The notes below the pieces were generated by a model. The model searched no databases, was not told where the DNA came from, and worked only from the letters and a program-made list of their open reading frames with translations. Shown here one piece after another: positions 38,379-45,187 of a stretch of 64,000 nt of DNA. Both the position numbers and the translations under genes were made by a program. This stretch comes from an uncultured Dehalococcoidia bacterium (GTDB lineage Bacteria; Chloroflexota; Dehalococcoidia; Lucifugimonadales; UBA3495): the NCBI GenBank assembly GCA_958296225.1, contig OY282456.1, positions 3,664,768-3,728,767 of the forward strand, given 5' to 3'. Positions within the stretch are counted from its first letter, which is position 1. Each line of letters begins with the position of its first letter.

Positions 38379-38384
38379 TATAAT
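38379..38384 (+). promoter_or_regulatory. TATAAT -10 box for the giant secreted protein
   Basis: A perfect TATAAT with no convincing -35 at 17 bp. Transcription would start near 38391, so the poly-C tract (38481-38498) would be inside the 5' leader, about 90-108 nt from the start. Confidence 0.45.
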
Positions 38385-38450
38385 CCTCTGCGGATTAACC
38401 TATGCCGGCCCGACGCCGGCTGATGCTGACGCCGCAGAGAGGACGCCCCG

Positions 38451-38519
38451 ATGCCTGCCCGAATGACTGCCCGAATCCTGCCCCCCCCCCCCCCCCCCGA
38501 CTTTGGGGGTGCAGAATGA
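38451..38519 (+). CDS. 22-aa leader ORF spanning the poly-C tract
   Basis: ATG at 38451 (AGAGAGGA 12-19 nt upstream) encodes MPARMTARILPPPPPP then DFGGAE. It crosses the 18-C tract and stops at TGA 38517-38519, overlapping the ATG of the giant gene (ATGATG). With 18 C it ends there and could couple translation by re-initiation. With 16 or 19 C it would run in frame into the giant protein. It may be a regulatory leader; expression is unproven. Confidence 0.4.
   Translation: MPARMTARILPPPPPPDFGGAE
38481..38498. repeat. Poly-C tract of 18 nt (candidate phase-variation site)
   Basis: An uninterrupted run of 18 C just 17 nt before the first ATG of the 2223-aa secreted protein. Homopolymers of this length are prone to slipped-strand errors in vivo, and also in library preparation and sequencing. 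Confidence 0.95.
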
Positions 38520-41500
38520 TGACCCGCCGCCGCATCCGCTTTGCGCTGGCCGGCGCTGCGCTGGCCCTGTTTGTCGTGCTGGCGGCCCTGGCCGGCTGGC
38601 TGCTGCCGGAGGTACGGCCGGCCGCCGCGCACAACAACAGCATCACGGCTATCAGCATCACCAGCAACGCCGGGCCGGATGACACTTACCGCACCGGCGA
38701 CGTCATAACCGTGCGGCTGACCTTTGACGCCGCTATCACGAACATCAACGGCTACTTGCGAATCGCCGTTGGCGGAAACACCCGCAACGCCCCGCCGACC
38801 GCTAGCGAACCAAACAGCACAAACGTTGACTTCTCTTATACGGTCGTCGCCGCCGACCTAGACACCGACGGCATCACCGTGGCCACTAACGCCCTCTTTG
38901 GCACTTATCTGCACGGAAGCTCCGAGCCCGGTCTCGACCGTACCATCCCCAACACCCTGGCTACCGCTCAGGCCGCGCACAAGGTCAACGTTATCGACTA
39001 CGATACCGATAACGACAACCTCATTGACATCACCACGCTGGCCCAGCTTAACGCCATCCGTCACGACCTGGACGGCGACGGCGCCCCTACTGCCGGAGCG
39101 GGAACCACTGCTTACAATACCGCTTTCCCCTACCGCGTAACTTCCGCCACCGGGCGGATGGGCTGCGCCGCTACCTGCGCCGGCTACGAGCTGATGGCCG
39201 ACCTGGACTTTGACACTGACGGCGATGACGACGTGGACAGCAACGACGCTTACCCCAACTGGTCGCCCATCGGAACTTACACGTCCACCTTCTACGGCAA
39301 CGGCCATAGCATCTCCAACCTGAACATCGACAGCAGCCAAGATGAAGTCGGGCTGTTTTCGATATTGAGCAGCAGCGGCGCCATCTCCGCGGTGGGACTG
39401 ATTAATCCCGATGTGAAGGGTCGGGAGGATTACTCAACGGTCGGCGGACTGGTGGGCGATAACCAGGGCACGATTAATGCCGCCTTTGTCAGTGGCGGCT
39501 CCGTTTTCGCCAGCGACGAGGGTATCTTCGCCGGCGGGCTGGCGGGCCGGAACAGGGGCACGATACGCGCCTCTTATTCCACCGCTGCCATCTCCAACAG
39601 TGGCGATGAGGATAATGACATCGGCGGGCTGCTGGGCAACAACTTTGGCGGCACCATCATCGCCAGCTACGCCGCCGGCACCGTTAGCGCCACCGGCACC
39701 AACGTCGATGTCGGCTGTCTGGTGGGAAACTTCCCGGCCACCATAACCAACAGCTATTGGGATTCCACCGTCTGCACCCTCACCGGCGGCGGCGGCGCGG
39801 GCCGGACCACCACCGCCCTGCAAACGCCCACCGCCTACGGAACTACCGGCATCTACTCTGCCTGGAACGTGAACGTTGACGGCAACGCCGGCAACGACGA
39901 CCCCTGGAACTTTGGCGCCAACAATCAATACCCCATCCTGCAATACGACCGGGATGCCGTCGGCATCGACCAGCAGCGGGGCAGTACCAGCAAGGACTAC
40001 GACGCCAACGACAACAATCTGATTGACATTACGACGCTGGCCCAGCTGGACGCCATGCGCTACGACCTGAACGGCGACGGCGCCGGCATCGCCAAAGGGA
40101 GCGCCAGCAGCAAATACGCGGCGGCGTTCCCCGGCCTGTCCCGTGGGATGGGCTGCCCCGGCACCTGCGCCGGCTACGAGCTGCGGAACAACCTGGACTT
40201 TAACACCGGAATGGCCGCCCGCACCGACGATGCTTATTACAACGGCGGCGCCGGCTGGACGCCCATCGGGACCGGCCCTGCGTCGTTCACCGGCACGTTC
40301 CGGGGCAACGGCCATACCCTGTCCAACCTGCAAATCAACGCGCCGGCGGGCACCCTGCAAATCGGGCTGTTCGGCGTCATCAACGGCCCGGTCTCCGGCA
40401 TCGGGCTGCCTAACGCCAGCGTTACCGGCGCCCATAATGAACTGTTCGCCGGCGCCCTGGTGGGCGAGCTGTACCCGCAGGGGGGGTCGGTAACTTCCAG
40501 CTGGGCCAGCGGCAGCGTAACCGCCAGCAGCGCCACCGGCCACGTCAAGCGCATCGGCGGCCTGGTTGGCAACAACGTGGGCGTGGTGCGGGCCAGCTAT
40601 GCCGACGTGTCGGTAACGGCCGACGCGGCGGCTACGACGATTTACGCCGGCGGCCTGGCCGGGAGCATGGGCACCACCGAGGTGACGGGCGCGGGCTCAG
40701 TGACGGCCAGCTATGCCACCGGCGCGGTAGCCGGCGGCACGAGCAACACCTCTTACGTCGGCGGGCTGGCCGGCCGGCTGGAGGGTACGCCCACCATAAC
40801 GGCGTCCTACACAATGGGGACGGTTACGGTCGGCGCCAGCGGCAACCGGGGCGGGCTGGCCGGCAATCTGCCCAGCGGTGCCACGGTGACCAACAGCTAT
40901 TGGCACATCGAAACCAGCGGCATCATCACCGCCGGCGCCGGCCAGGGCAAACTCACCGGCGAGCTGCAAATGCCCACCGGCTACGCCGGCATCTACTCCG
41001 GCTGGAACGTGGACGTTGACGGGGAAACCGGCAACGACGACCCCTGGGACTTCGGCTACGATTCCCAATACCCGGTGCTGAAGTACGGCGGCCTGGACCT
41101 GCTAAAGCAGGGGCGGGACACGATTGTTCTCTCCACCGACGAACTGGACGCGGACGAGGGGGCCGACACCACCTATACCGTGCGGCTGGGCGGCCGGCCC
41201 ACGGCGGCGGTAATCGTAACCGTAACCAGCCCCACCGGAGACGACGTAACTATTGACGGCCCGGACAGCGGCGCCGGGTTCAGCGAAAGCGAGGAGGTGA
41301 GTTTCTCGACTACCAACTGGAATCAGCCGCAAACGGTAACCGTCCGGGTCGCGAGTGACACCGACCTGGCTGATGGCACGGCCACCCTGACGCACACCGC
41401 CGCCGGCGCCGGCAGCGGCTTTGCGGGCGTCACCGCGTCCCTCGCCGTAACCGTTACGGACGACGACACCGGCAGCATCCTCCTGACCCAAAACAGCATG

Positions 41501-44500
41501 GCCATAACCGCGCTGACGGTGGATGAGGAGGGCAGCAACGTTACTTATGATGTGGCGCTGAGCCACCGGCCGACGGCTGCGGTCACCGTCACCGCCACCA
41601 CCACCGGCCTGCTGATTGACGGCCCCGACGCCGGCGCTGTGTTCTCCACCAGTGAAACGATAGCCTTCACCACTTCCAACTGGTCAACGGCGCAGACGGT
41701 AACGATAGAGGCGCCGGGGAATGACGCCAACGCAATGGACGAAACGGCTACGCTGGCCCACACGGCCACCGGCGGCGGCTATGGCAGCGTCAGCAAATCC
41801 CTGTCCGTAACCATTGACGACAACGACGCTCCGGACATCATCCTGTACCACGCCACCAATAGCGCCGCCATCACCACGCTGCCCGTAACCGAGACGGTTG
41901 CCGCCTCTTACCGCGTGCGCCTGGCAACCCTGCCCACGGCTGATGCAACCGTCACCGTCACCGCGTCCGCCGGTTTGGAAATCAACGACGGCAGCGGCAA
42001 TTACGGGAGCAGCCGCACGCTGAGTTTCACGACGGCTGACTGGGATACGCTGCAAACGGTAACGGTGCGGGCGACGGCGGACGACGACCTGGCCGATGGC
42101 AGCGCCACGCTGTCCCACGCCGCCGCCGACGCGGTGCCGGGCACGGCCAGCGCCTACGCCGGCGTCAGCAAGTCCCTGCCCGTAACGATTACGGACAACG
42201 ACACGCCAACCATCATCATCTCCGAAACCGTCGCCCTGTCGGTGGACGAGGGCGGCACCGGCAGCTACACCGTCAAGCTGAGCCACCGCCCGGCCGCCGG
42301 CGTAACCATCACCATCACCAGCAGCGCCACCGACGCCGTGACCATCGCAACCGATGGCACTTTCAGCGACAGCGAAACGCTGAGCTTCTCGACTAGCGAC
42401 TGGAATACGCCGCAAACGGTAACGGTCAAGGGAGCAACCGACAACGACCTGTCTAACGACCTCAACAACACCCTGACCCACGCCGCCAGCAACACAGTGT
42501 CCAGCCAGGACAGCCTGTTCAGCAGCGCCGCCGCCGCCGAGCTGTCCGTAACGGTAACCGACACTACCAGCCCCAGCATCGTGCTAACCCAAAGCGGCGC
42601 GGCCATCAGCGGCGCGCTGTCCATCGAGGAGGAGGGCACCAACGTCACTTACCAGGTGGGCCTGAGCAACGCGCCCCTGGCTCCCGTAACCGTCACCATC
42701 ACCAGCAACAACGCCGCCGTAACCATCGACGGCCCCGACGCCGGCGCCGGGTTCAGCAACAGCGAAACGCTGAGATTCAACACCGGGGTCACTACGGCGC
42801 AGACGGTAACCATCCAGGCGCCGGATGACGGCAACCCGGTCAACGAAAGCGTAACGCTCACTCACGACGCCAGCGGCTCGCTCAGCGGCTACGAAAACGT
42901 CAGCGACGCCACCCTGACCGTGAACGTTATGGACGACGACGCGCCAAACATCGTCCTGTCCGAATCCATGCTGACCGTAGCCGAGGAGAACAGCGTCACC
43001 GTGGACTACACCGTGCAGCTGGCTACCCTGCCCACGGCCAACGTAACCGTAACCGTAACCGCGTCCGGCGACTTGACCATCGACGGCCCCGACGCCGCCA
43101 CTGCGTTCTCCACCAGCGAAGCGCTGACTTTCACTGCTCTGAACTGGTCAACGGCGCAGACGATAAAGGTGAAGGCGGCGGCGGACAACGACCTGGCGGA
43201 CGACGCCGCCAGGATTGACCACCGGGCGGCCAACGCGGGGGCCACGGCCAGCGGCTACGCCGGCATCAGCAAATCCCTGCCCGTAACGGTTACCGACGAC
43301 GACACGGGCAGCCTCATGCTGTCCGAAACCTCCCGCACTGTAACCGAGGGCGACGACGCCGGCGCAACCTATACCGTGAAACTGAGCCACCGGCCCTCGG
43401 CAACGGTAACCGTAACCATCACCGGCGACACCGGCAAGGCCGCCGCAACCCCGGCGTCCCTAACCTTCAACGCCGCCAACTGGAACGTGGCGCAGACGGT
43501 AACGGTAACGGCGGTGGCCGACGCCGACCTTGCCAACGACAGCGACACGCTGACCCACACGCCCAGCGAAACCGGCGGCTACCTGGCCACGGCAGCCGAG
43601 GATGTAACCGTAACCGTCCACGACACCACCGCGCCGGCCATCACCTTCAGCGAGAGCCAGTTGTCTATCGAGGAGAGGGACAACGGCACCTACACCGTGG
43701 CACTGGCTGCCGCGCCCCCGGCTGATACAACCGTTGCCATCACCAGCAGCAACTCCGCAATCACTGTCAACCCGGCGACCCTGGCCTTTACCACTATGAA
43801 CTACGGCAGCGCCCAGACGGTAATGGTCAACACGACGGCGGACGATGACGCCTTCCACGATGCGTTTGCGCTGACGCACACCCCCACCATCCGGGGCATC
43901 GCCGGCGACGTCACGCTGCTGCTGGCGCTGCTGCGGGAGCCGGAGCCCAGCGAAAGCGAGGAGCCGGCGCGAATCCGTATCACGCCGCCGCCGCCGCCGT
44001 CGCCGGCCGCCACCTCAACAATAACAATCTACGCTATCGACACCCACACGCTTACGGTGGCCGGCACGGCCGGCGTTCCCGACGGGGTGACGGTCAATAC
44101 GTTGCAGAGCCTGGCCGGGGACTTGACCATTACGTTCAGCGTGCCGTCGGGCATCCCAACCACGCTTTCCGGCTTCAGTCTGGACGGCGATACGCTGGTG
44201 GACATTGAGCCGGATTCCGTGCCGGCGGGCGGGCTGGAAATCTGCCTGCCCCGGGGCGACGGTTCCACGCAGCTGCTGCACTACCGGGCGGCCGGTTGGC
44301 AGGTAGTGCCGGGTTCGGGGCCGCGGGGCGACCAGGTCTGCGGCACGGTAAGCGAGTTCTCCCCCTTCATCGCCGGCCAGCCCGCCGCCGTCGCGCCTGA
44401 GACCGAGCCTGAGCGGCCGCCCATCATCTACAACCTGAACATCCGCTTTGACGCCCGGCGCATTGCGTTGCCGGAGGGGCATACCGCCAGCTACCAGGTG

Positions 44501-45187
44501 CGCCTGGCCGGCCGGCCCGCCGGTCGCGGTGCCACGATCAGAATCCGCAGCGACAATCCGGACGTGAAACCGACTCCCGCCGAGCTGCGTTTCACCGCCG
44601 CCGACTGGAACCAGTGGCAAACGGTAAGCATCGCCATCGCCGGCGACGCCAATCATACGGACGAAAGCGCGACGCTGGCCCACTACGGCCCCAACCGCGG
44701 CTACGGCTCCGTGCTGGTGTCGGTAACGGACACCGGGGACAGCCGGCAGGCTGGCGACACAATCCCGCCGGCGCTGACGGTAATCACGGAGCCGGGAGCG
44801 CGCTGGGGCGTAACCGTAACGGCAACCACGCCGGCGGATTTGACGGCGCACGGCGTGGTCCGGGTATCGCCGGCCTCTGGCGTACCACGCACGGCGGCGG
44901 GCTACGGCCTGGGCCGGAACGGCGCAGCACAAGCCATCGTGAGCATCGCCGCGCCGGCGGACGCGCCGGCATCGGGGCTGACCGTCTGCCTGCCGGTGGC
45001 CCGGGCGCTGGCGGAGGAGGCCGGGGAACGCCGGCTGACGCTGCTGCGGTATGGTGATGCTGCTGACACCGGCGGCGGCTGGCAGGTGGTACCGGGCGCG
45101 GAGTATGACGCCGTGGGGCGGAGGGTTTGCGCCGCCGGGGTGAGCGAGTTCGGCCCCTTTGCGGCGGCCTATATCCTGCCGCAATAA
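38516..45187 (+). CDS. Giant secreted GLUG/Calx-beta-like repeat protein (adhesin-like)
   Basis: A 2223-aa extracellular protein. A signal peptide (RRRIRFALAGAALALFVVLA...RPAAA) spans residues 1-38. The N-terminal third contains two copies of an approximately 330-residue module. Each has an acidic DxDNDN-LIDITTLAQL segment, a GMGC...CAGYEL pair, GLUG motifs (GGLVGDNQGTI, GGLAGRNRGTI, GGLAGSMG) and an end reading NDDPWNFG then QYPIL. From about residue 865 there are nine roughly 95-120-residue beta-sandwich repeats (EEGxxxTYxVxLSxRP...FSxxNWxxxQTVTV), resembling Calx-beta/adhesin domains. There are two 'WQVVPG...SEFGPF' blocks near the C-terminus. No sortase motif, anchor or terminal TM is visible. 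The ATG at 38516 follows GGGGGTG. Confidence 0.9.
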   Translation: MMTRRRIRFALAGAALALFVVLAALAGWLLPEVRPAAAHNNSITAISITSNAGPDDTYRTGDVITVRLTFDAAITNINGYLRIAVGGNTRNAPPTASEPNSTNVDFSYTVVAADLDTDGITVATNALFGTYLHGSSEPGLDRTIPNTLATAQAAHKVNVIDYDTDNDNLIDITTLAQLNAIRHDLDGDGAPTAGAGTTAYNTAFPYRVTSATGRMGCAATCAGYELMADLDFDTDGDDDVDSNDAYPNWSPIGTYTSTFYGNGHSISNLNIDSSQDEVGLFSILSSSGAISAVGLINPDVKGREDYSTVGGLVGDNQGTINAAFVSGGSVFASDEGIFAGGLAGRNRGTIRASYSTAAISNSGDEDNDIGGLLGNNFGGTIIASYAAGTVSATGTNVDVGCLVGNFPATITNSYWDSTVCTLTGGGGAGRTTTALQTPTAYGTTGIYSAWNVNVDGNAGNDDPWNFGANNQYPILQYDRDAVGIDQQRGSTSKDYDANDNNLIDITTLAQLDAMRYDLNGDGAGIAKGSASSKYAAAFPGLSRGMGCPGTCAGYELRNNLDFNTGMAARTDDAYYNGGAGWTPIGTGPASFTGTFRGNGHTLSNLQINAPAGTLQIGLFGVINGPVSGIGLPNASVTGAHNELFAGALVGELYPQGGSVTSSWASGSVTASSATGHVKRIGGLVGNNVGVVRASYADVSVTADAAATTIYAGGLAGSMGTTEVTGAGSVTASYATGAVAGGTSNTSYVGGLAGRLEGTPTITASYTMGTVTVGASGNRGGLAGNLPSGATVTNSYWHIETSGIITAGAGQGKLTGELQMPTGYAGIYSGWNVDVDGETGNDDPWDFGYDSQYPVLKYGGLDLLKQGRDTIVLSTDELDADEGADTTYTVRLGGRPTAAVIVTVTSPTGDDVTIDGPDSGAGFSESEEVSFSTTNWNQPQTVTVRVASDTDLADGTATLTHTAAGAGSGFAGVTASLAVTVTDDDTGSILLTQNSMAITALTVDEEGSNVTYDVALSHRPTAAVTVTATTTGLLIDGPDAGAVFSTSETIAFTTSNWSTAQTVTIEAPGNDANAMDETATLAHTATGGGYGSVSKSLSVTIDDNDAPDIILYHATNSAAITTLPVTETVAASYRVRLATLPTADATVTVTASAGLEINDGSGNYGSSRTLSFTTADWDTLQTVTVRATADDDLADGSATLSHAAADAVPGTASAYAGVSKSLPVTITDNDTPTIIISETVALSVDEGGTGSYTVKLSHRPAAGVTITITSSATDAVTIATDGTFSDSETLSFSTSDWNTPQTVTVKGATDNDLSNDLNNTLTHAASNTVSSQDSLFSSAAAAELSVTVTDTTSPSIVLTQSGAAISGALSIEEEGTNVTYQVGLSNAPLAPVTVTITSNNAAVTIDGPDAGAGFSNSETLRFNTGVTTAQTVTIQAPDDGNPVNESVTLTHDASGSLSGYENVSDATLTVNVMDDDAPNIVLSESMLTVAEENSVTVDYTVQLATLPTANVTVTVTASGDLTIDGPDAATAFSTSEALTFTALNWSTAQTIKVKAAADNDLADDAARIDHRAANAGATASGYAGISKSLPVTVTDDDTGSLMLSETSRTVTEGDDAGATYTVKLSHRPSATVTVTITGDTGKAAATPASLTFNAANWNVAQTVTVTAVADADLANDSDTLTHTPSETGGYLATAAEDVTVTVHDTTAPAITFSESQLSIEERDNGTYTVALAAAPPADTTVAITSSNSAITVNPATLAFTTMNYGSAQTVMVNTTADDDAFHDAFALTHTPTIRGIAGDVTLLLALLREPEPSESEEPARIRITPPPPPSPAATSTITIYAIDTHTLTVAGTAGVPDGVTVNTLQSLAGDLTITFSVPSGIPTTLSGFSLDGDTLVDIEPDSVPAGGLEICLPRGDGSTQLLHYRAAGWQVVPGSGPRGDQVCGTVSEFSPFIAGQPAAVAPETEPERPPIIYNLNIRFDARRIALPEGHTASYQVRLAGRPAGRGATIRIRSDNPDVKPTPAELRFTAADWNQWQTVSIAIAGDANHTDESATLAHYGPNRGYGSVLVSVTDTGDSRQAGDTIPPALTVITEPGARWGVTVTATTPADLTAHGVVRVSPASGVPRTAAGYGLGRNGAAQAIVSIAAPADAPASGLTVCLPVARALAEEAGERRLTLLRYGDAADTGGGWQVVPGAEYDAVGRRVCAAGVSEFGPFAAAYILPQ

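Follow-up and report, generated by a model that had tools for sequence, protein, structure and literature searches.

Does the run of 18 cytosines that stands just before the gene for a giant surface protein in an uncultured Dehalococcoidia bacterium act as a phase-variation switch and, if so, by what route would a change in its length reach the protein? In the window, by which we mean the whole stretch of 64,000 nt that was analysed, the tract (C18) occupies positions 38481-38498 and is followed by 17 nt and then by the ATG at 38516 that opens an ORF of 2223 aa. An earlier note, made from the letters alone, had given the tract this distance from the ATG and placed it within a 22-codon leader ORF whose TGA overlaps that ATG, and had worked out how the leader frame would shift with C16, C17, C18, C19 and C20. 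The coordinates were reproduced, including the overlap of the TGA (38517-38519) with the ATG (38516), and our recomputation of the frame arithmetic agrees. The locus reads as follows.

38379-38384, forward strand: likely -10 element (TATAAT) for the transcript that spans leader and adhesin, proposed because most paralogues have TATAAT or TAAAAT in front of the leader
38437-38443, forward strand: Shine-Dalgarno-like GAGAGGA of the leader ORF
38451-38519, forward strand: leader ORF of 22 codons plus TGA, presumed to be translated
38481-38498, forward strand: C18 tract
38499-38517, forward strand: flank module common to most tracts, here GACTTT, a G-rich stretch, and CAGAAT at the usual place of the A-rich box
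38505-38511, forward strand: GGGGGTG, a possible second Shine-Dalgarno for the adhesin ATG, with a predicted hairpin to the C tract
38516-45187, forward strand: giant secreted surface protein of 2223 aa, with a signal peptide, GLUG motifs and fn3-like repeats

The tract therefore stands downstream of a leader ATG that has a good ribosome-binding site and upstream of the adhesin ATG, which is followed by a second in-frame ATG at 38519. The next-longest run of C in the window is 7, as is the longest run of G, and under an independent-base model C/G runs of at least 18 are expected 0.00016 times in 64 kb and 0.006 times genome-wide; C18 has in this respect the mark of a contingency locus, a repeat tract longer than chance. 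A second mark, a change of reading frame on gain or loss of a unit, is also present. With C18 the leader stop overlaps the adhesin start (coupled), with C19 or C16 the leader is fused in frame with the adhesin (fused), and with C20 or C17 it overruns the adhesin start by 164 nt (overrun). With the tract at C18, the open frame of the adhesin can also be followed upstream to ATG 38402, which has no evident Shine-Dalgarno; the closest paralogue does not share this extension. A sigma-70 consensus scan upstream of the leader gave no full match and no evident -35; the likely -10 lies approximately 100 nt before the tract, which places the tract inside the likely transcript. No relative of the adhesin with a solved structure was found by sequence.

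We hypothesize, with a probability of about 0.7, that this locus undergoes translational phase variation driven by slippage and exerted through the coupled leader ORF. Replication slippage would change the length of the tract, ribosomes would load on the leader ATG at 38451 with its good Shine-Dalgarno and translate through the tract, and the frame in which they leave it would decide the outcome at the adhesin start. In the current C18 state, where the leader stop overlaps the ATG, translation could restart there; C16 or C19 would yield a leader fused to the signal peptide; and with C17 or C20 the ribosome would pass the start out of frame, with the protein reduced or abolished. The pairing predicted in the RNA between C18 and GGGGGTG could in addition make re-initiation dependent on translation of the leader. 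A hairpin between the same two elements that hides the Shine-Dalgarno was rejected as a mechanism, the predicted fold being not clearly better than those of shuffled sequences, and it remains no more than a candidate aid to coupling. The rate of slippage and the level of expression in each state are what we infer from this arrangement.

The same design is common to 22 surface genes in the window genome (G000) and in the closest relative compared (G003; 3,298,084 bp, with its tracts as in OY282494.1, an uncultured Dehalococcoidia chromosome). Each has a leader ATG, 16-32 codons and then the surface ATG, with GGAGG, AGAGGA or a close variant preceding the leader ATG in 22/22, and a run of at least 10 lies between the two ATGs in half of them (11/22). 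The leader sequences differ, and in every member a stop overlaps the surface start in one frame, whether as ATGA (15), TAATG (4) or TGATG (3). That the overlap is kept by three sequence solutions points to translational coupling, although the copies are related rather than independent. Their present states are coupled in 11, fused in eight and overrun in three; overrun among the members with short runs (1/11 vs one third expected) is not significantly depleted (p=0.075). Two members have frame damage further on, and those with TAGAATGATG may have no OFF state, since a stop at the start codon ends both of their non-fused frames.

Homologous copies that differ in both tract length and frame, a further mark of contingency loci, are found in other families as well. 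A glycosyltransferase-like membrane family, which has no Pfam match and owes its name to a likeness to PMT-type genes, has 23 copies in G000, G003, G015 and G356, seven of which bear a tract of C8 to C17 at one site. Five of these seven are broken exactly at the tract, as against 0/16 tract-free copies, one of which is broken elsewhere (Fisher p=6e-4, to be taken as a guide, the copies being related). In G015, which belongs to another genus, one of two near-identical LRR lipoprotein genes has C18 and stops after 13 codons, and its partner has C25 and reads through into the lipoprotein signal peptide. Tract lengths both in frame and out of frame are present in the PMT-type family. In a secreted fn3-trypsin gene, G13 closes the signal-peptide part and the mature protein lies in a different frame. 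Which individual copies are ON or OFF is uncertain, because the comparison draws on one assembly per genome and one genome per species and assembled homopolymer lengths can be off by at least one.

The tract in the window is one of a set. The window genome, a single contig of 3.97 Mb, has 23 C/G runs of at least nine (lengths 9 to 18), where an independent-base model predicts approximately 180, and poly-C and poly-G tracts proved generally under-represented in an earlier survey of 99 genomes (PMC2831843). Eight of the 23 runs reach at least 14, compared with 0.07 expected from the tail given 23 runs; runs of at least nine are thus generally avoided, yet long ones are in large excess. About 20 long poly-C tracts of this genome are so placed that gain or loss of a single base would shift a reading frame. 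Comparison with related genomes, which the earlier note had proposed, revealed similar tract sets in several Dehalococcoidia/Chloroflexota relatives with long-contig assemblies: G003 has 29 C/G runs of at least nine, the longest of 27, and runs of at least 13 number 19 in G015, 14 in G037 and 10 in G033. Unlike G000 and G003, G010 (same genus, single contig, 4.4 Mb) has no run of at least 14, and the tract repertoire has therefore been gained or lost between species of one genus. Fragmented short-read relatives were excluded from the comparison because poly-G/C runs at contig ends can be artefacts; one contig end in a public MAG (L126, from G252) has 82 G's beside an apparent Nextera adapter, a sequencing artefact.

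The genes that carry tracts belong mostly to the classic contingency classes of surface, glycan and restriction-modification functions, with exceptions that include an HTH regulator and a glycerate kinase. Pfam names among them are LRR proteins, PMT-type and family-2 glycosyltransferases, a TylF-like methyltransferase (sugar O-methyltransferase), the fn3-trypsin secreted protein, an N6/N4 DNA methylase, the HTH regulator and an arylsulfotransferase-like protein, and in surface proteins whose signal peptide is of the same type as the adhesin's the tract adjoins the start. The DNA methylase gene (L019:4963-5961, in the C1:841596 region of G000; Pfam 4.6e-44) has C12 at its 5' end, where the start codon is ambiguous, and a similar gene in G015 (L192) carries C17; a phase-variable methylome is possible for both. 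The tract of the HTH regulator gene (L013:3651-4148, in the C1:2416109 region of G000) is a C14 at the end of the gene, and a transcription factor may therefore also be phase-variable. Three tandem copies of an unnamed membrane-protein family (L023:4998-8471) each have a tract near the N-terminus (C12, C13 and C9), and genes like these with a tract at a similar place occur in other families of the order (L168, L181, L186 and L198). In G003, at approximately position 3209 of L093, a C9 run lies between 'gattcccccgcacacgcggggataga' repeat units that resemble a CRISPR array. The earlier note had likened the layout at the adhesin to that of contingency loci, and the likeness is strengthened by the many long tracts in such gene classes of the same genome, by the frame-breaking length differences between paralogues and by the occurrence of the adhesin leader family in all three frame states.

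The sequences around the tracts are themselves alike. In G000 and G003, together with one tract in G002 (a Chloroflexi MAG, contig JAPOQH010000043.1, the relative that supplied it), the base after tracts of at least 11 is G in 37/37. When each of 25 gene groups, among them three subtypes of the surface-protein leaders, is represented by a single tract, the flanks give the consensus ATTNT[A/G]-Cn-GANTTT-N8-AAAAA, with p down to approximately 1e-9 per column, values that serve as a guide as the groups were picked by eye. This flank is common to unrelated genes, is read in different frames and lies on either strand relative to the gene, which indicates that the first part of the consensus is a DNA-level signal; the A-rich box, apparently more pronounced where the gene reads in the C sense, may in part be due to lysine codons. 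G is also the next base after 38/43 tracts in three further genomes (one of another genus, two of other families of the order), and the remainder of the consensus grows fainter with distance. Its origin may lie in short-patch copying between genes, in a structural requirement of the tract or in a dedicated enzyme. That dedicated, sequence-specific machinery makes or maintains the tracts, over and above passive slippage, we think doubtful, although a recognised flank module moved between unrelated genes would, if real, be a new way of installing hypermutable switches. The idea that GACTTTG marks tracts universally was rejected, since an exact search of 84,980 species for C12-GACTTTG returned just 17 stretches; the Neisseria glycosyltransferase-like genes among them are read as convergence.

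The same observations bear on other accounts of the tracts. Transcriptional slippage can arise at long homopolymers, and slippage of RNA polymerase, or frameshifting of the ribosome, on DNA of fixed length would give all three frames in a graded mixture with no heritable switch. The long intact frames that out-of-frame copies retain downstream are also what leaky expression of this kind would leave, but tract lengths of close paralogues differ widely, including by non-multiples of three, from which it follows that the DNA itself changes length, and, seen from the gene, the tract may consist of C or of G; we regard this account as unlikely. That the tracts are assembly artefacts, or neutral microsatellites without a role, is considerably less probable. 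False poly-G does occur at contig ends in some short-read relatives, L126 among them, but several long-contig assemblies, made independently, have tracts at corresponding sites of homologous genes, and a common flank consensus together with contingency-type gene classes would be hard to reconcile with either idea; for the long-contig genomes the artefact was rejected.

Least probable of all, in our estimation, is that the tract controls transcription by promoter spacing or as a binding site, as the C stretch of Bordetella fim does. A phased A-rich box in the common flank and tracts close to a -10-like box (in L089, C12 is followed by TATAAT and an ATG) speak for such a role. Against it, many tracts lie deep within coding genes, the A-rich box is AAAAA and lacks the final T of a -10, for which reason the flank motif was rejected as a promoter element, and the tract in the window lies within the leader ORF, past the likely -10 and not in the promoter position of the fim type. 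The promoter-spacer model was accordingly dropped for this locus. Loss of mismatch repair was likewise rejected as the cause of the tracts, as MutL, which the check covered, is present in 7/7 genomes checked; slippage would have to outrun mismatch repair, if repair is complete.

Phase variation through the coupled leader, our preferred reading, would extend beyond this one gene. Judged from their genomes, these bacteria probably turn surface genes on and off by means of poly-C tracts, and such switching would take place within a population. The benefit would presumably be a surface whose proteins and glycans keep changing in the face of a host, phages or grazers. Some genomes of uncultured Dehalococcoidia have at least 10 putative tract switches each, the leader design, if it acts as proposed, would be a three-state translational switch in which one tract sets stop-start coupling, fusion or overrun, and the common flank module could reveal how such switches are acquired. 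Poly-C switching of surface genes is a mechanism known mainly from pathogens. Our literature searches, with preprints and many subscription papers outside their scope, turned up no account of phase variation for either Chloroflexota or sponge symbionts, and the adhesin locus is best read as poly-C phase variation via a coupled leader in a phylum for which no earlier report was found.

Several known systems share part of this arrangement. In the lic genes of Haemophilus influenzae, repeats precede several start codons in different frames, and there as here a single repeat, by way of different frames and starts, yields several states of expression; the lic repeat, however, is a tetranucleotide inside the gene, with no stop-start coupled leader ORF. 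The promoter C stretch of Bordetella fim controls a surface structure and is a poly-C tract of similar length, whereas the tract in the window lies inside a likely transcript and leader ORF. In Listeria inlA a 5' poly-A tract reversibly shifts the frame of a surface-protein gene (PMC2831843); the position of a homopolymer near the 5' end of such a gene is alike, but the inlA tract is a short run of A in the gene itself, with no separate leader ORF (PMC2831843). Phasevarions are phase-variable DNA methyltransferases (PMC2667262), and the tracted methylase genes L019 and L192 may be candidates of this kind. Closest are the homopolymeric contingency loci of Neisseria and Campylobacter, with poly-C or poly-G in surface-protein and glycosyltransferase genes (PMC5084427, PMC4965091). 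They too have several long C/G tracts per genome in surface, glycan and DNA-methylase genes, with length modulo 3 setting the frame. The present case differs in belonging to uncultured Chloroflexota, with putative variation within populations, in having the adhesin-family tract in a distinct leader ORF, the stop of which overlaps the start, and in the flank consensus that its tracts share across unrelated genes.
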